From: Actinomycetes bacterium
GTDB taxonomy: Bacteria > Actinomycetota > Actinomycetes > Actinomycetales > Cellulomonadaceae
DNA: 5,994 nt
Direction: 5' to 3'
Assembly: GCA_023389545.1 (NCBI GenBank)
Contig: JAEWEI010000332.1
Coordinates: forward strand, 1-5,994
A program made the position numbers and the translations under genes. How positions within the stretch are numbered: the stretch's first letter is position 1; every line of letters begins with the position of its first letter. This document shows positions 1-5,994 of the stretch, in pieces. Under the pieces are notes generated by a model. That model had not been told where the DNA came from, did no database searches, and was given only the letters and a program-made list of their open reading frames with translations.

Positions 1-1624
1 CGACGGCCATGCCGCGCAGCCCGCGGGAGCCGATCTGCTCGGTCAGCGCGGCGAGGCGCTCACGCTGCGCCTCGTCGAGCGGGACCTTCCCCGTCGGGGT
101 GTCCAGCCACGCGCAGCGGGCCAGCACCACGTCCGGGCCTCCCTTGACGAACAGCCGCGCGCCGCTCTCGCCCGGGACCAGCCCTTCTGCCCAGGCGGCC
201 AGGGTCGCCCGGGCCTCGTCGTCCGCGGGCGCCTCGCCGCGCACCGCCGCCCACTCGTGGAACGTCGCCATGTACTTGCGGTCGGAGTCGAAGGGGATCT
301 CCGCGACCCGGGGCCAGGCGCGGCGCGCCGCGTCCACGTCGAGGCCGCCCTTCGCGGCGAGCACCACGAGGGCGCCCTCGGTGGGGTCGCCCACCAGCTC
401 GCCGTCGCGCAGCACGGCCTCGCTCGCCAGCGCCATGCCCAGCAGCGCGCGGCGCACATCCGGCGCGGGGCCCTCGCCCGTCACCTCGAGGGCGCCGTCG
501 GTGGAGTAGCCCTCCCCGGACACCTCGAAGAGCCGCTGCCCGGCGAACAGCTCACGCGCTGTCATCTGGTTGAGGGTCAGGGTGCCGGTCTTGTCCGTGG
601 CGATGTGCGCGGTCGAGCCGAGCGTTTCCACGGAGGACAGCCGCTTGAGGATCGCGCCCTGCCGCGCGAGCCGCCCGGCGCCCATCGCGAGGGTGAAGGT
701 GACGACGGCCGTCAGCCCCTCGGGGATGGTCGCGACGGCCAGCGCCACAGCCGTCAGGAACAGGTCCGCTGGCGCCACGCCCCGCAGCAGGCCGAGCACG
801 AAGACGATGACGATGACGACGCCGGCGATGACGCTGAGGAACGTCGCGAGCTGCGCGATCTGCCGTTGCAGCGGCGTGGTCTCCCGCCCGGCCGAGCTGA
901 GCAGCCCCGCGACGCGGCCGATCTCGGTGCGCATGCCGGTGGCCGTGACGAGCAGCGCGCCGCGCCCGCGGGTGACGGCAGTGCTCATGTACGCCATGTC
1001 GGTGCGGTCGCCGAGGCCCGCGGCAGGGTCGCCCAGCGCGGACACGTCCTTGCTGACCGGCGCCGACTCCCCCGTGAGGGCCGACTCCTGCACCTCCAGG
1101 CCCGCCGCCTCGATCAGCCGCCCGTCGGCCGGGACGACGTCGCCCGGCTCGAGCAGCACGACGTCCCCGGGCACGAGCCCGTCGGCCTCGACCTGCTCGA
1201 CCCGCCCGTCACGCCGCACCGTCGCACGCGTGACAGTCATGTCCTGCAGCGCGCGCAGGCTGTTCTCAGCCCGGCGCTCCTGGACCAGGTTGAGGATCGC
1301 GTTGAAGACGACCACCACGAGGATGACGATCGGCGTCTCGAGCTCGCGGGACACCACAGCGCTGACCACGGCCGCGGCCAGCAGCACGAGCGTCATCGGC
1401 TCGACCAGGAGGGCAAGGATCTTGCGCCACGCCGGAGTCGGGGGCGCCTGCTCGAGCTGGTTCGGGCCGACGTCCGCCAGCCGTCGGGCGACCTCGGGGC
1501 CGTCCAGCCCCTGTCGGGGATCGACGGCGAGCGCGGTCTTGGCCTCGTCGATCGTCAGGACGTGCCACGGACGGGCGTCCCCTGATGTCGTGTCGGCTGT
1601 GGCGATGGGGTCTGCCTCGGGCAT
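1..1624 (-). CDS. P-type cation-transporting ATPase, P2 (Ca2+/SERCA-like) family, N-terminal part
   Basis: Reading the minus strand from an ATG at 1624-1622 gives 541 residues with no stop before the left edge, so the C-terminal 40% or so (rest of the P domain and M5-M10) is missing. A membrane pump that uses ATP to move a cation. Visible in order: a cation-ATPase N-terminal domain (about 20-66); M1 (69-92) and M2 (97-114); the actuator loop TGES at 184-187; M3 (262-280); M4 (288-310) with PEGL at 301-304; the phosphorylation motif DKTGTLT with Asp344; and the nucleotide-domain KGGPD (family KGAPE) at 494. In SERCA the Glu of PEGL is a Ca2+ ligand, and there is no N-terminal CxxC metal-binding domain or CPC motif. 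This argues for Ca2+, Mg2+, Na+ or K+ rather than copper or zinc, but the ion cannot be decided here. Thr follows PEGL where SERCA has Pro. GAGG lies 8 bases before the start; upstream in-frame codons offer no alternative start. Confidence 0.95.
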
Positions 1625-1721
1625 CTGCCCATCCTCGCATCGGGCTGCCGCGCACGCGGGCCCGGCGCCGCGCCACGGGAGGACGGCCCGGCCACCGGTC
1701 GCCGCGCGCACTCGCGGTGCG

Positions 1722-1727
1722 TAGCGT
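1722..1727 (+). promoter_or_regulatory. Weak candidate -10 element for the membrane-protein gene
   Basis: TAGCGT in the 206-base divergent intergenic region fits the loose actinobacterial TAnnnT pattern for a -10. It would start a transcript near 1734 with a leader of roughly 97 bases before the ATG at 1831. No convincing -35 is visible upstream. No good promoter for the divergent ATPase gene could be picked out either. The region has no ATACCC/GGGTAT operator, so nothing visible ties these two genes to the repressor further downstream. Confidence 0.25.
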
Positions 1728-1816
1728 GGTGAGGTCCATTCGGACACGGGTGGACGAGCCGAGAGCGCGGCCTCGGACCCTGCGGTTGTCCCGGCGGCCT
1801 CGGCTCCCGCACTCCT

Positions 1817-1823
1817 GAGGAGG
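1817..1823 (+). promoter_or_regulatory. Ribosome binding site of the membrane-protein gene
   Basis: GAGGAGG, a near-perfect match to the anti-Shine-Dalgarno sequence, lies 7 bases before the ATG at 1831. It supports that start over the in-frame Met at residue 5. Confidence 0.8.
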
Positions 1824-1830
1824 CCGGCTG

Positions 1831-2469
1831 ATGAGCACCCCGATGGACCCCCACGACCAGCCACCCGCCTACCGGCCCGAGCCCCACGGCTCCAGCGCGG
1901 CGCGCATCGGCGACGCGGTGGTGGAGCGCGAGCGGGAGCGGTTCGGCGGCGTCAAGGTGGGCTCCGCGTTCTTCGGATGGCTCACCGCGACGGGCACTGT
2001 CGTGTTGCTGACCGCCATCGTGGCGGCGGTGGGCATCGCGATCGGCGCGGCCAGCAACACCGACATCGACGCGGCGACGGATCAGGCCGCCGCCGATCCG
2101 ACGACCGTCGGGATCGTCTCCGGCATCCTCCTGCTGCTGGTCGTCCTGGTGGCCTACTACTGCGGCGGGTACGTGGCCGGGCGGATGGCGCGCTTCAACG
2201 GCGCGCGGCAGGGCGTCGCCGTGTGGTTGTGGGCCGTGGTGCTGTCGGTGGCGGTGGCCGTCCTCACGGCGATCGCCGGCGCCCGCTACAACGTGCTGGC
2301 GGAGCTGAACGGCGTTCCGACGGTGCCGCTGGACGAGGGCTCCCTCACATTCGCGGGGGTGGTCGCGCTGGTCGTGATCGCGGTGGCGAGCCTGGTGGGC
2401 GCGGTGCTGGGCGGCATGGGAGGCATGCGGTTCCACCGCAGGGTGGACCGGTTCGGCTTCAGTCGCTGA
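1831..2469 (+). CDS. Four-helix integral membrane protein of unknown function
   Basis: The 212-residue protein starts with a Pro/His-rich cytoplasmic tail (1-24), then a charged segment (25-42, with alternating Glu/Arg around 32-37). Four hydrophobic helices follow, at about 44-73, 92-117, 128-149 and 173-197, and a short basic tail (RFHRR at 200-204). There is no cleavable signal peptide. The stretch GGYVAGRMARF at 112-122, at the end of helix 2, followed by a short loop and helix 3, recalls small multi-helix membrane proteins such as the TIGR04086/DUF3792 type; that resemblance is from memory and not proven. Acidic residues between helices 1 and 2 (77-89) would face outside if the N-terminus is cytoplasmic. 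No catalytic or transport motif was recognised. It ends one base before the promoter of the reductase gene, so readthrough into the sulfur cluster is possible, but nothing shows a shared function. Confidence 0.85.
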   Translation: MSTPMDPHDQPPAYRPEPHGSSAARIGDAVVERERERFGGVKVGSAFFGWLTATGTVVLLTAIVAAVGIAIGAASNTDIDAATDQAAADPTTVGIVSGILLLLVVLVAYYCGGYVAGRMARFNGARQGVAVWLWAVVLSVAVAVLTAIAGARYNVLAELNGVPTVPLDEGSLTFAGVVALVVIAVASLVGAVLGGMGGMRFHRRVDRFGFSR

Positions 2470-2470
2470 C

Positions 2471-2498
2471 GTGACCGATACCCCCGGGGGTATATAGT
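2471..2498 (+). promoter_or_regulatory. Promoter of the reductase-rhodanese operon
   Basis: GTGACC (2471-2476; four of six bases match TTGACA) and TATAGT (2493-2498; five of six match TATAAT) are 16 bases apart. The predicted transcription start, 6-7 bases after the -10, falls at about 2505, the first base of the GTG start codon. The spacer is filled by the palindromic operator, so a bound repressor would block RNA polymerase directly. TATATA at 2491-2496 is an alternative -10 register. The promoter begins just after the stop codon of the upstream membrane-protein gene. Confidence 0.65.
2478..2493. promoter_or_regulatory. CsoR/CstR-type operator 1
   Basis: ATACCCCCGGGGGTAT is a perfect 16-base palindrome with an AT edge, C-tract, G-tract and AT edge. 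This is the operator architecture of CsoR-family repressors (CsoR, CstR). It agrees with operator 2 at 4894-4911 at 13 of the 16 core positions, differing only in the centre. A CsoR-family gene lies in the same cluster, which makes it the obvious binding protein. The site lies between the -35 and -10 of the reductase promoter. Confidence 0.85.
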
Positions 2499-2504
2499 CG
2501 GAGT

Positions 2505-4298
2505 GTGGACCAGCACCTGACCCCCCGCACCAACCCTGTCCCCGACGGCGCCGCCGCCCGCCGGATCGTCATCGTCGGCGGCGTCGCCGGCGGCATGAGC
2601 GCCGCCGCCCGCGCCCGCCGCAACGACGAGCGCGCCGAGATCATCGTGCTCGAGAAGTCTGAGCACGTGTCGTTCGCGAACTGCGGCCTCCCGTACCACC
2701 TGTCCGGCGAGATCGAGCGCCGCGACGACCTGCTGCTGCACACGCCCCAGTCGCTCGCGCGCACCCTCGACCTCGACGTCCGGACCCACCACGAGGTCGT
2801 GGCCGTGGACCCCGCCGCCCGGGCCGTCACAGTCCGCGGCCCGCACGGCGAGCACCGGATCGGCTACGACGCGCTGCTGCTCGCGCCGGGCGGCGTCGCC
2901 GTGCGACCCCCGATCGACGGCATCGACCACCCCGCCGTCCACACCCTGCGGACCATCCCGGACGTCGACGCGCTGCGCGCCGAGGTCGACCGGGTCACGT
3001 CCGCGCAGACGCCGGGCGCCACCCCGCGCGCCGTCGTGGTGGGCGCCGGGTTCATCGGCCTCGAGGCGGTGGAGGCGCTCACCGCACGCGGGGTGCGCGT
3101 CGACCTGGTGGAACTGGCCGACCACGTGCTGCCCCCGCTCGACGCCGAGCTGGCGCCGCTGCTGGCCGACGAGCTCGCGGCGCACGGCGTCGGGGTGCAC
3201 CTCGGCGTCTCGGCACAGTCGATCCACCCCGCCGCCGATGGCCACCGCGTCACCGTGGCCCTGTCCGACGGCACGCCGCTGCCGGCCGACCTCGTCGTGG
3301 TCAACGTCGGGGTGCGCCCCGCCGGCGACCTCGCCCGCCAGGCGGGCCTCGACACCGGCACCACCGGCGCCATCACCGTCGACGCGGACCAGCGCACGTC
3401 CGACCCGCACATCTGGGCCGTGGGCGACGCAGTCGAGGTGGCGCACGCCGTCACCGGCGCCGTCGGGCCCGTCCCGCTGGCCGGCCCGGCCAACCGCCAA
3501 GGCCGCCGCGCCGCCGACTCCATGACCGGGCGCCGCACCACCCCGCAGGCCACAGTGCTCGGAACCGCCATCGTGCGCGTCTTCGGCCTCACCGCAGCCG
3601 TCACCGGCGCCAGCCAGGCCACGCTGCGCCAGGCGGGCATCGCGCATGAGGTGGTGCACCTGCACCCCGCGCACCACGCCGGGTACTACCCCGGCGCCGA
3701 GACGATGCACCTGACGGCGTCCTTCGCGCCCGACGGCCGCCTGCTGGGCGCCCAGGCCGTGGGCCGCTCCGGGGTGGACAAGCGCATCGACGTGCTCGCC
3801 ACCGCGCTGCGCGCCGAGATGACCGCAGACGACCTGGCCGAGCTCGAGCTCGCCTACGCCCCGCCGTACGGCTCCGCCAAGGACCCGGTGAACATGCTGG
3901 GCTTCGTGGCGCAGAACGTGCTGAGCGGCGCCATGCCGCAGTGGCAGGCCTGGGACCTCGACGAGGCGCTGCGCACCAGCCTGGTGCTGGACGTGCGCTC
4001 CGCAGCGGAGTTCGCCGCCGGCCACCTGGACGGCGCCCTGAACATCCCGCACACCGAGCTGCGCGCCCGCCTGGACGAGGTCATCGAGGCCGCCGACGGC
4101 CGCCCGGTGAAGGTGCACTGCGCCAGCGGCGTCCGCTCCTACCTGGCCACCCGCATCCTGCTGGCGCATGGCGTGGACGCCCGCAACCTCTCGGGAGGCT
4201 GGCTCACGCTCGAGGCGGCCCGCCGATCCGCGGCGCCCCTCCCAGCACGCGTGGCCACGACCCGCATGCCCACCGACCCGGAGGAGATCCCCGCATGA
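2505..4298 (+). CDS. CoA-disulfide / persulfide reductase with C-terminal rhodanese domain (CoADR-Rhd fusion)
   Basis: A 597-residue cytoplasmic flavoenzyme. Family members use NAD(P)H to reduce CoA disulfide, CoA persulfide or polysulfide, releasing thiol and H2S, while the rhodanese domain carries sulfane sulfur. Visible: FAD-binding GGVAGG at 25-30; active-site Cys60 in the SFANCGLPYH context typical of CoA-disulfide reductases (one Cys, not the CxxxxC pair of glutathione reductase); NAD(P)-binding G180-A-G182 and G185; a second FAD motif WAVGDA at 304-309; and the dimerisation half, with GYYPG (Tyr394/395) and YAPPYGSAKDP (Tyr451, Tyr455), where the family has its active-site tyrosines. 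The rhodanese domain spans about 482-575, with LDVR at 495-498, GHLDGA from 506 and a CASGVRS loop with catalytic Cys539. The GTG start is chosen because the first in-frame ATG (Met31) would remove the FAD motif. There is no Shine-Dalgarno sequence. The stop overlaps the next start (ATGA). Known fused homologues are about 550-565 residues; the extra length here is a short N-terminal leader and a C-terminal tail. Confidence 0.95.
   Translation: MDQHLTPRTNPVPDGAAARRIVIVGGVAGGMSAAARARRNDERAEIIVLEKSEHVSFANCGLPYHLSGEIERRDDLLLHTPQSLARTLDLDVRTHHEVVAVDPAARAVTVRGPHGEHRIGYDALLLAPGGVAVRPPIDGIDHPAVHTLRTIPDVDALRAEVDRVTSAQTPGATPRAVVVGAGFIGLEAVEALTARGVRVDLVELADHVLPPLDAELAPLLADELAAHGVGVHLGVSAQSIHPAADGHRVTVALSDGTPLPADLVVVNVGVRPAGDLARQAGLDTGTTGAITVDADQRTSDPHIWAVGDAVEVAHAVTGAVGPVPLAGPANRQGRRAADSMTGRRTTPQATVLGTAIVRVFGLTAAVTGASQATLRQAGIAHEVVHLHPAHHAGYYPGAETMHLTASFAPDGRLLGAQAVGRSGVDKRIDVLATALRAEMTADDLAELELAYAPPYGSAKDPVNMLGFVAQNVLSGAMPQWQAWDLDEALRTSLVLDVRSAAEFAAGHLDGALNIPHTELRARLDEVIEAADGRPVKVHCASGVRSYLATRILLAHGVDARNLSGGWLTLEAARRSAAPLPARVATTRMPTDPEEIPA
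4280..4286 (+). promoter_or_regulatory. Ribosome binding site of the stand-alone rhodanese
   Basis: GGAGGAG lies inside the last codons of the reductase gene, 8 bases before the ATG at 4295. Together with the ATGA stop/start overlap, it indicates translational coupling and fixes the start of the downstream gene. Confidence 0.8.
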
Positions 4299-4675
4299 GC
4301 ACCACCCCCACGCCGTCCCTCGGCGACCGCCTGCGCAGGCTGCTGGGCCGCGGCCAGGACGACGGGCGGCTGCGCGCGACGGTGGACGCCGCCCGGGCGC
4401 TCGAGCTGGTGCGGGACGGCGCGTCACTGGTCGACGTCCGCGAGCGCGGCGAGTGGCGTGCCGGCCACGCCCCGCAGGCCGTGCACATCCCCCTGGCCGA
4501 GATCGACAAGGCCGCGCAGCGCGTCGCCAAGGGCCGTCCCGTCGTCGTGATGTGCGCCAGCGGGATGCGCTCGCGCACCGGCGCGAAGCGGCTGCGCGCC
4601 CTCGGCCTGGACGCGACGAGCCTCTCGGGCGGCATCGGCGCCTGGCAGGCCGCGGGCGGCGCCGTGCGGCGCTGA
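4295..4675 (+). CDS. Single-domain rhodanese sulfurtransferase
   Basis: A 126-residue protein. After a basic, probably flexible N-terminus (1-28, with several Arg in 12-19), a rhodanese domain fills about 29-122. It shows LVDVRERGEW (45-54), GHAPQAVHIP (57-66), a hydrophobic strand leading into the active-site loop CASGMRSR with Cys87, and the closing LSGGIGAW (110-117). Such proteins accept sulfane sulfur on the loop Cys and pass it to thiols. No signal peptide or membrane helix is present, so it is likely cytoplasmic. It overlaps the reductase stop by four bases and is surely co-transcribed and coupled, which suggests a relay between this protein and the fused enzyme. Its active-site loop closely resembles that of the fused rhodanese domain, differing mainly at the Val/Met position; a shared origin is possible but not shown. 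Confidence 0.95.
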   Translation: MSTTPTPSLGDRLRRLLGRGQDDGRLRATVDAARALELVRDGASLVDVRERGEWRAGHAPQAVHIPLAEIDKAAQRVAKGRPVVVMCASGMRSRTGAKRLRALGLDATSLSGGIGAWQAAGGAVRR

Positions 4676-4706
4676 CTCCCCCACACCTCACCACCACACC
4701 CACCCC
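4675..4706 (+). other. G-free, C/A-rich intergenic stretch
   Basis: This run of 32 bases contains no G on the plus strand, in a window where G is normally about a third of all bases. It begins at the last base of the rhodanese stop codon and ends just before the ribosome binding site of the small Cys-rich gene. A C-rich, G-poor unstructured RNA could be a Rho-loading (rut-like) site, or could keep the next ribosome binding site open. Either role is inference. Confidence 0.4.
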
Positions 4707-4711
4707 GTTTG

Positions 4712-4717
4712 AAGGAG
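4712..4717 (+). promoter_or_regulatory. Ribosome binding site of the 39-aa peptide gene
   Basis: AAGGAG lies 6 bases before the ATG at 4724 and directly follows a T-rich GTTTG patch. It is one of the main reasons for accepting such a short reading frame as a gene. Confidence 0.75.
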
Positions 4718-4723
4718 TTCCCC

Positions 4724-4843
4724 ATGTGCTTCCCCGTTCCCTGCGCCACCTGCGGCAAGACGACCTGGGACGGCTGCGGCCTGCATGTCGACGACGTGAT
4801 GTCGCAGGTCGCCGCCGATCAGCGGTGCACGTGCCGCCGCTGA
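4724..4843 (+). CDS. 39-residue Cys-rich small protein, function unknown
   Basis: A short reading frame with six Cys in 39 residues: Cys2, Cys7-x-x-Cys10, Cys18 with His21, and Cys35-x-Cys37. The core reads CATCGKTTWDGCGLHVDD (7-24), and the C-terminus is basic (CTCRR). This CxxCGKTTWxGCGxHV pattern resembles a recurrent family of roughly 40-residue uncharacterised proteins in bacteria and fungi (recalled, not searched). The Cys/His spacing could bind one zinc ion, or the thiols could be persulfidated. A good ribosome binding site, the gene-like spacing and the dense Cys pattern make it very likely real. It lies 48 bases after the rhodanese gene and 98 bases before the repressor gene, and is probably on the same transcript as the reductase and rhodanese. 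That position in a sulfane-sulfur cluster hints at a thiol or metal role; no function can be assigned. Confidence 0.8.
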   Translation: MCFPVPCATCGKTTWDGCGLHVDDVMSQVAADQRCTCRR

Positions 4844-4893
4844 GCAGCGCCCGCGACAAGGCAGCGCCGGGCCCTGCCCCTGCGCCGTCCGCC

Positions 4894-4911
4894 GATACCC
4901 AGCGGGGTATC
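4894..4911. promoter_or_regulatory. CsoR/CstR-type operator 2
   Basis: GATACCC and its exact reverse complement GGGTATC are separated by four bases (AGCG). The core ATACCC-N4-GGGTAT has the same geometry as operator 1 at 2478-2493. It lies 30 bases before the repressor start codon, in the 98-base gap after the small peptide gene, so it most likely mediates autoregulation. TATCGT at 4908-4913, overlapping the right arm, could be a -10, but no clear -35 is visible. Confidence 0.8.
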
Positions 4912-4927
4912 GTGCTGAGCAGTCACC

Positions 4928-4934
4928 GAGGAGG
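4928..4934 (+). promoter_or_regulatory. Ribosome binding site of the repressor gene
   Basis: GAGGAGG ends 7 bases before the ATG at 4942 and fixes that start. The much longer open frame upstream in this phase lacks such a site and conflicts with the rhodanese and peptide genes. Confidence 0.8.
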
Positions 4935-4941
4935 AATCGGC

Positions 4942-5208
4942 ATGGAGCTCGACAGGGACGAGATGGCCAAGGTCAGCAACCGGCTCAAGCGCGCCCAAGG
5001 GCAGCTCACCGCCGTGGTGCGGATGCTCGACGAGGGCCGGGACTGCGAGGACGTCGTCACCCAGCTCTCCGCCGTGTCCCGCGCCCTGGACCGCGCCGGG
5101 TTCGCGATCATCGCCTCGAGCATGCGCCAGTGCATGACGAAGTCCGACGAGGGCGAGCAGACGCTGGACGTGCAGAAACTCGAGAAGCTCTTCCTCTCGC
5201 TGGCCTGA
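4942..5208 (+). CDS. cstR: CsoR-family transcriptional repressor, CstR-like persulfide sensor
   Basis: An 88-residue all-helical protein of the DUF156/CsoR family. These proteins form tetramers that bind C/G-tract palindromes and let go when their Cys residues react. Visible: the helix-1 signature RLKRAQGQLTAVVRML (14-29), GRDCEDVVTQLSAVSRAL (32-49) with Cys35, and the helix-2 end SSMRQC with Cys64. The two Cys are 29 residues apart, as in CsoR and CstR. In copper-sensing CsoR the residue four before the second Cys is the copper-ligand His; here it is Ser60. That argues against copper and for the CstR branch, which forms di-, tri- and tetrasulfide links between the two Cys on exposure to persulfide. 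The neighbouring reductase and rhodaneses support this. Two matching operators in the cluster are its likely targets, including its own promoter. The family assignment is firm; the persulfide specificity is inferred. Confidence 0.92.
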   Translation: MELDRDEMAKVSNRLKRAQGQLTAVVRMLDEGRDCEDVVTQLSAVSRALDRAGFAIIASSMRQCMTKSDEGEQTLDVQKLEKLFLSLA

Positions 5209-5226
5209 CTGCGCCTGCGCGGGGTC

Positions 5227-5994
5227 CTAGACCCGTTCGAGCAGGGTCAGCACCTCGTAGTGCGCCGTCTGCGGGAACATGTCGAGCACCTGCGCCTGGC
5301 GTGGGCGCAGCGACGGCATCAGCGCGAGGTCCCGGGCCAGGGACCCCGCATGGCAGCTCGAGTACACGACGTGCCGCGCCGACGACCCCTCGAGCCAGCG
5401 GCTGAGGTCCTCGCCGAGCCCGCGCCGGGGCGGGTTCACCACGACCAGGTCGGGCGCCCGCTCAGCCGCGAGCGCGAACGCCGTCGCGTCGCCGGCCTCG
5501 AACGTCACTCGGTCCAGGCCGGCCTCCTGCGCGCTGAGCCGCGCGCTCGCCACCGCCTCCACGCTGGTCTCGATGCCCACCACCTCGCGCGAGGGCTCGG
5601 CGACGTGCAGCGCGAAGCCGCCGACCCCGCAGTACAGGTCCCACACCGAGGCGGGCGACTTCTCGCCGACCCAGGCGGCGGCCTGCCGGTAGAGCGCCGC
5701 GGCGACGTCGGTGTTCGTCTGGAAGAAACTCTGCGGGCGCAGGCGCAGGGCGACGCCGCCCAGGCGCATCCGCAGCGTCTGCTGCTCGGTGAGCACGATC
5801 TCCCGCTCACCCTCGACCGTCGCCTTGTGCTCGGGGTGCAGGTTCACGGACACGACCGCCAGCCGCGGCAACGCCGACCGCAACCACGGCAGGTGCTTGC
5901 GGATCCGGGCGACCGACTCCTGCGACCGCAGCACCAGCCGCAGCATGAGCTCGCCGTCGGGCGACTCGGTGACCAGCAGGTACTTCAGCTCGCC
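5227..5994 (-). CDS. rlmC: 23S rRNA (uracil-C5)-methyltransferase, RlmC/TrmA family, C-terminal part
   Basis: The last 255 residues of a protein whose N-terminus lies beyond the right edge; the frame is open through position 5994, so the Met at 5946 is internal. The enzyme methylates C5 of a uridine in 23S rRNA using S-adenosylmethionine. Counting from the window edge: ELKYLLVTESPDGELMLR (2-19) is RlmC-like; FFQTN at 90-94; SAM-binding DLYCGVGGFALH at 119-130; NPPRRG at 187-192; the nucleophile Cys214 in YSSCHAGSLARDL; and the general-base Glu247 near the C-terminus (MFPQTAHYEV). All the catalytic parts are present. The residue after the Cys is His, where many relatives have Asn. The Fe-S-binding Cys residues of the family would be in the missing N-terminal part. 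RlmC is preferred over RlmD/TrmA from the ELKYLLVTESPDGELM segment, with moderate certainty. It converges on the repressor gene with an 18-base gap and is probably unrelated to the sulfur cluster. Confidence 0.93.
   Translation of the reverse strand, partial: GELKYLLVTESPDGELMLRLVLRSQESVARIRKHLPWLRSALPRLAVVSVNLHPEHKATVEGEREIVLTEQQTLRMRLGGVALRLRPQSFFQTNTDVAAALYRQAAAWVGEKSPASVWDLYCGVGGFALHVAEPSREVVGIETSVEAVASARLSAQEAGLDRVTFEAGDATAFALAAERAPDLVVVNPPRRGLGEDLSRWLEGSSARHVVYSSCHAGSLARDLALMPSLRPRQAQVLDMFPQTAHYEVLTLLERV

Follow-up and report, generated by a model that had tools for sequence, protein, structure and literature searches.

The 5,994-nucleotide stretch of contig JAEWEI010000332.1 analysed here (the window), from a bacterium of the Cellulomonadaceae, carries a short gene for a 39-residue Cys/His microprotein among genes for sulfur handling. 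A preliminary description of this DNA had picked out the reading frame for its six cysteines with CxxC, CxxH and CxC elements, for the AAGGAG six bases before its ATG, and for its place after a reductase and a rhodanese and before their probable repressor; all of these features are present, and Pfam agrees with the domains in that gene order. The cysteines stand at positions 2, 7, 10, 18, 35 and 37, with His21, giving the pattern MC-x4-CxxC-x7-CxxH-x13-CxC. The reductase, a flavoprotein resembling CoA-disulfide and CoA-persulfide reductases with a C-terminal rhodanese domain (CoADR-Rhd), matches the NCBIfam CoA-disulfide reductase at 8.1e-119, yet stays below that model's curated cut-off. Its stop overlaps the start of the stand-alone rhodanese (ATGA); the microprotein frame opens 48 bp past the rhodanese stop, with the gene of a CsoR-family repressor downstream (Table 1).

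Two CstR-type operators, absent from the preliminary description, rank among the best evidence for a link to persulfide. With up to two mismatches allowed, the window holds these two sites, compared with a mean of 0.02 expected, and none of 200 shuffles held two. One overlaps the predicted operon promoter; the reductase GTG lies six bases past that promoter, so the operon mRNA is likely leaderless, and no terminator-like site was found in 2400-5300. Both operators fit the ATACC-n6-GGTAT motif that a report on Streptomyces coelicolor assigns, as a 16-bp segment, to ScCsoR, whose binding is affected by polysulfide (PMC7533328). The window thus combines sulfur-handling genes (CoADR-Rhd and rhodanese, by Pfam), a repressor with two sensor cysteines and no copper-site histidine, and a palindromic CsoR/CstR operator at the predicted promoter, as would suit a CstR-controlled persulfide operon. 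The probable membership of the microprotein gene in a CstR regulon is well supported.

Table 1. Features of the window (positions on the forward strand)
Feature	Coordinates	Strand	Description
CstR-type operator ATACCCCCGGGGGTAT	2478..2493		Perfect ATACCC-n4-GGGTAT; overlaps predicted operon promoter
Predicted sigma-70-like operon promoter	2471..2498	+	GTGACC-16-TATAGT; sole site in 2400-5300; mean 0.1 in shuffles
CoADR-Rhd	2505..4298	+	Flavoprotein resembling CoA-disulfide/persulfide reductases, rhodanese domain at C-terminus; Pfam Pyr_redox_2 2.4e-57, Rhodanese 5.4e-14
Stand-alone rhodanese	4295..4675	+	Pfam Rhodanese 9.8e-17; N-terminal SLGDRLRRLLGR motif
Shine-Dalgarno sequence of microprotein gene	4712..4717	+	AAGGAG, six bases 5' of ATG
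Cys/His microprotein MCFPVPCATCGKTTWDGCGLHVDDVMSQVAADQRCTCRR	4724..4843	+	39 aa; ATG at 4724, stop ends at 4843
Second CstR-type operator ATACCCAGCGGGGTAT	4895..4910		Perfect match; between microprotein and repressor genes
CstR-like repressor, CsoR/DUF156 family	4942..5208	+	PF02583 (Trns_repr_metal) 3e-23; Cys35, Ser60 (not His), Cys64
P-type ATPase (flank)	2-1864	-	DKTGTLT motif, recognised by eye
tRNA (uracil-5)-methyltransferase-like gene (flank)	5227-5994	-	

The reading frame at 4724-4843 is a real gene and a member of a large unnamed family of microproteins. A single-sequence search returned three relatives only; a nine-sequence profile recovered 3492 proteins at E<=0.01 out of 3593 candidates (those listed are the best 120 of the 3492 and are therefore biased toward the query), as well as at least 577 family stretches in the genome collection. 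A phylum sample of 296 Actinomycetota genomes has the family in 36, and a sample of the order that includes G300 (source of a Cellulosimicrobium locus) has it in 94 of 198. Conservation was followed in 385 sequences, made up of the window copy, 156 genes from genomes and 228 proteins either listed by searches or kept by translation. The Cys/His pattern is kept in 380, of which 375 match a strict expression and five have the same spacing with the matched stretch starting at Cys; the misses are one stop-interrupted gene, three sequences without Cys10 (P0198 and two yeast entries) and P0209, the only intact sequence without Cys2. Across 51 independent close gene pairs, differences number 221, 193 and 549 at codon positions 1, 2 and 3, most of them thus at the third, and changed codons comprise 390 synonymous and 338 non-synonymous. 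Family genes have a Shine-Dalgarno-like sequence ahead of them in 125 of 155 cases, random places in 18 of 155. Of the outcomes that the preliminary description held would refute its proposal, a lack of conserved homologues with the same Cys spacing and a lack of any translation signal did not occur.

Copies longer than that of the window predominate, with 117 of 156 extending at least 11 residues past position 37. Other bacterial names among the relatives are Acidobacteria, Deltaproteobacteria and Myxococcaceae; eukaryote records add one EukProt entry (P0202) and the yeast Cutaneotrichosporon oleaginosum, whose entries (P0214, P0228) have lost Cys10. In four loci (L163, L183, L238, L303), a long family gene and a short one stand in tandem. 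One 58-residue family protein is 100% identical across contigs of Microbacterium, Thermocrispum, Cellulosimicrobium and Microlunatus (L007-L011), an identity over four genera that suggests recent horizontal transfer.

Comparison with known families placed the microprotein in none of them. The window copy has no significant Pfam or NCBIfam match, and 71 family members searched against both gave weak matches only (best E 0.0076), with no metallothionein family among the matches at E<=0.1. Two short families came nearest, TIGR04129 (CxxH/CxxC protein; two of 71 members, best E 0.0076) and PF14116 (YyzF-like; two of 71, best E 0.046); neither matched the window copy, and the resemblance is not significant. 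Rfam gave no match, and a search of PDB sequences gave one chance match (E 3.9). In the open-access literature, the scope of the search (subscription papers lay outside it), the core peptide of the family occurs as text in no relevant paper, its two string matches concerning other subjects, and none of the papers listed for CstR, rhodanese, persulfide or small proteins was about such a microprotein; within that literature, the earlier guess that its pairing with CstR and CoADR-Rhd genes is undescribed holds. Among 40 listed plasmid matches, 30 carry no annotated feature, in a gene table that is incomplete. No family relative was confirmed on viral contigs. An unverified, unannotated faecal "phage" scaffold (L343, MT835623.1), which may be bacterial DNA, does carry a family gene, and CstR-type operators lie about 2.2 kb from that gene; with this one doubtful scaffold and no confirmed viral relative, a phage origin was rejected.

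The link to sulfur genes extends well beyond the window. Neighbourhoods were tabulated for 156 family genes in 125 genomes of the two samples, with flanks of up to 8 kb (shorter where a contig ended), a gene being linked when a CstR-like repressor or sulfur enzyme lies within 3 kb or a CstR-type operator up to 2.6 kb upstream. So defined, 126 of the 156 genes are linked, one or more linked copies occur in 103 of 125 genomes, and outside the order sample the fraction is 24 of 36; the homologues are not the scatter unrelated to sulfur genes that would have spoken against the preliminary description. CstR-like genes crowd close to the 120 family genes of the order sample (48, 16, 4, 0, 1, 0, 2 and 0 per successive 1-kb distance bin). 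Within 3 kb, they lie near 66 of 120 genes and rhodaneses near 72 of 120; the phylum sample gave 20 of 41 and 17 of 41. In such neighbour counts, the models for rhodanese, CoADR and PDO cross-match, as all three contain a rhodanese domain. When neighbouring open reading frames (ORFs) within 4 kb were clustered into families found in at least eight genomes, and eight cluster representatives named by Pfam, the commonest cluster was the CstR-like repressor (73 of 125 genomes), followed by rhodanese (51); smaller named clusters include TauE/SafE and MFS proteins (15 genomes each), CoADR-Rhd (12) and thioredoxin (11), and among the clusters of 16-20 genomes many look like antisense ORFs. Four of the five genomes with the rhodanese nearest that of the window (69-72% identity) have a short family copy within a 1.5-kb flank. 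The family tree, built on 38 columns, is poorly resolved and interleaves linked and unlinked copies (21 changes), although none of 500 shuffles (mean 27.8 changes) grouped the link label as tightly.

Operators point the same way. Allowing one mismatch in the core TACCC-n4-GGGTA, 98 sites fall in the 500 bp upstream of family genes; operon heads are located farther out, and the four bins that cover 500-2500 bp upstream have 9, 9, 19 and 18 sites, any other bin 0-5. In the 300 bp upstream, 75 of 156 genes have an operator with at most one mismatch (68 with a perfect core), compared with 2 of 156 in a control 300-600 bp downstream; in the 2.6 kb upstream, 117 of 156 have one, compared with 13 of 156 when a far upstream stretch serves as control. 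Twenty-three of the 156 copies have an operator directly upstream though no repressor or sulfur gene lies within 3 kb. A survey of 24 hand-chosen genomes (75 of 80 sites listed and examined) gave 22 site-gene pairs directly upstream, one site being counted for two genes. Seven of the hand-picked genomes have just one perfect operator, which stands directly before a family gene in four, up to 2.6 kb upstream in two and in neither position in one. On a Clavibacter capsici plasmid, one operator lies between divergent reductase and family genes, and on plasmid pRHL3 of the laboratory strain Rhodococcus jostii RHA1 an operator with a perfect core precedes the family gene by about 45 bp.

The type of sensor was read from the residues of the neighbouring repressors. 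All 79 have two Cys 29 residues apart (Cys-x28-Cys), and the residue four before the second Cys is Gly, Ala, Ser, Thr or Asn (Ser60 in the window) and never His, which at that position is the copper ligand of CsoR. Non-adjacent high-scoring CsoRs of the same genomes have His there in 17 of 17 readable cases (20 fetched, 3 not extracted). The model used to find neighbouring repressors was seeded with that of the window and could miss copper-type neighbours; a control with PF02583 covers this. Its 150 listed places, from 80 of the 94 order-sample genomes having a family gene, were split at 90 bits by eye: 0 of 67 at or above that score have a family gene within 3 kb, compared with 49 of 83 below it (Fisher p 2e-17). 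With no copper-site His in the neighbours and the high-scoring CsoRs distant, a copper link was judged unlikely.

For the microprotein itself, AlphaFold2 gives the window copy a beta hairpin and a helix beginning at CGxH (pLDDT 81, pTM 0.40), and a tailed homologue a shorter helix with an uncertain tail; Foldseek placed small zinc fingers among its best rows, none of them significant. C7, C10, C18 and H21, kept in 380 of 385 sequences (three lack C10), are predicted to form one zinc site in a hairpin/helix finger. After Cys35, the 375 strict matches have Cys37 (161), His at 38-40 (206) or both (8). Interchange of Cys and His is typical of zinc ligands, and the presence of Cys37 or His38-40 as a last ligand in 375 of 375 argues for metal; C2, C35 and C37 (or His38-40) may make up a second thiolate site.

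Taken together, these observations suggest the following reading, in which regulon membership is the firmer part and zinc binding and function are inferred. Persulfide modification of CstR would free the operators, and reductase, rhodanese and microprotein would then be made together. C7, C10, C18 and H21 would hold one zinc, and a second site, of thiolate or metal type and more reactive, would be made by C35, C37 (or His38-40) and C2, which becomes N-terminal when Met is cleaved off. A gene likely in a CstR regulon with a rhodanese and a CoA-persulfide-type reductase presumably encodes a protein that meets sulfane sulfur there, probably delivered to the second site by the rhodanese, and the microprotein would serve as acceptor, relay or zinc-release buffer. 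We consider it an even call that the 39-residue protein, a member of an unnamed family in a likely CstR-controlled operon and with a predicted zinc fold, is a zinc-thiolate acceptor taking up or relaying sulfane sulfur under persulfide stress. A bolder version is more doubtful and offered tentatively: a new, widespread zinc-thiolate family, a core CstR target in actinobacteria, that would be dedicated to capturing sulfane sulfur, releasing zinc and passing the sulfur on to the pair of rhodanese and CoA-persulfide reductase, its small fold being ancient and present in some fungi as well.

The link is not universal. Thirty of the 156 copies have no link at all, and short copies (up to 42 aa) are less often linked (22 of 34), several of the unlinked ones being second copies in genomes that also carry a linked one. 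The claim that the gene belongs to a persulfide-response cluster stands for its repressor, rhodanese and operator links, backed by controls, and falls short of holding for every copy. Near one unlinked short copy lies an RraB-like protein (PF06877; L218:8616-9014, minus strand) whose cluster occurs in nine genomes, perhaps indicating another role of the microprotein fold.

A role as adaptor is unlikely but the main alternative. The zinc-finger head would bind to CstR, to the reductase or to the rhodanese, and the amphipathic C-terminal tail of most relatives would anchor the protein to membrane or partner. A GFFxRLFGR-like C-terminal motif ends 75 of the 117 tailed copies, compared with 0.5 expected by shuffling, under an expression composed after the sequences had been viewed; a tail helix is predicted at low confidence, and rhodaneses beside short copies (the window, G300, G438, G571) bear a similar, RLRRLFSR-like motif at the N-terminus. 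The copy in the window, however, lacks the tail, and the rhodanese motif also occurs where the flanks showed no microprotein. In the window (4295-4340) and in L327-L341, the RLRRLLGR-like amphipathic N-terminal motif of the rhodanese resembles the C-terminal tail of longer microproteins; the idea that the motif moved between the two proteins was dropped, as such rhodaneses carry it whether or not the flanks examined contain a microprotein.

Distinctly less probable is a metal-free sulfur carrier, with C2 or the CxC thiols persulfidated by the rhodanese and the sulfur handed to the reductase, much as TusA-like carriers hand on sulfur. Rhodaneses and CoADR as genetic neighbours and the near-invariance of C2 (P0209 apart) would fit, but the 206 sequences with His at 38-40 and no Cys37 do not, because a sulfur-transferring thiol is not expected to be swapped for His (eight sequences have both); CxxC and CxxH, moreover, appear structural. 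A metallothionein-like copper/zinc buffer or chaperone, by analogy with MymT, has small size, Cys residues and a regulator of the CsoR family in its favour, and is improbable given that 15% Cys is low for a metallothionein, that adjoining repressors lack the His and none of the 67 listed high-scoring CsoRs is within 3 kb, and that the matches of the 71 members scanned include no Pfam metallothionein. A cysteine-responsive leader peptide or spurious ORF, suggested by a short, Cys-rich frame upstream of a repressor gene, is scarcely credible beside protein-level conservation, third-position-biased divergence, the 23 copies behind their own operator that have no repressor or sulfur gene nearby, and relatives far beyond this type of locus; the spurious ORF was rejected on homologues, codon-position bias and ribosome-site frequency.

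With about 39-60 residues and no domain model to recognise it by, a protein of this kind is easily overlooked, yet it is regularly operator-linked in actinobacteria and stands behind the sole perfect operator found in some hand-picked genomes. If the zinc reading is true, it would be an overlooked part of the actinobacterial sulfur-stress response. Handling of sulfane sulfur on zinc-thiolates would join zinc and persulfide biology, and persulfide buffering without harm to the cell's own zinc sites would become directly testable.

Several known systems offer comparison. MymT is a small Cys-rich metallothionein of the mycobacterial RicR regulon, a copper regulon under a CsoR-family repressor; the microprotein resembles it in being small and Cys-rich and in its type of regulator, and differs in that the MymT regulon is one for copper. 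CstR controls the Staphylococcus aureus cst operon and the Enterococcus faecalis CoA persulfide reductase, and these Firmicutes regulons share with the window a CoADR-Rhd-type reductase and a rhodanese alongside CstR. We know of no such microprotein in them; the CstR-type regulons known to us consist of enzymes and transporters. For the E. faecalis reductase, a structure is reported (PMC9405070). The ScCsoR sulfane-sulfur circuit of S. coelicolor comprises four genes (PDO, TauE, rhodanese and CsoR-like repressor), with sco0622-0623 outside it; unlike the window, it includes no microprotein in the account available, whose main text has 0 instances of the term "small protein" (PMC7533328). It shares with the window a two-Cys CsoR-family repressor, an ATACC-n6-GGTAT site and a rhodanese target, and the sulfite exporter among its targets is counted as a further shared feature.
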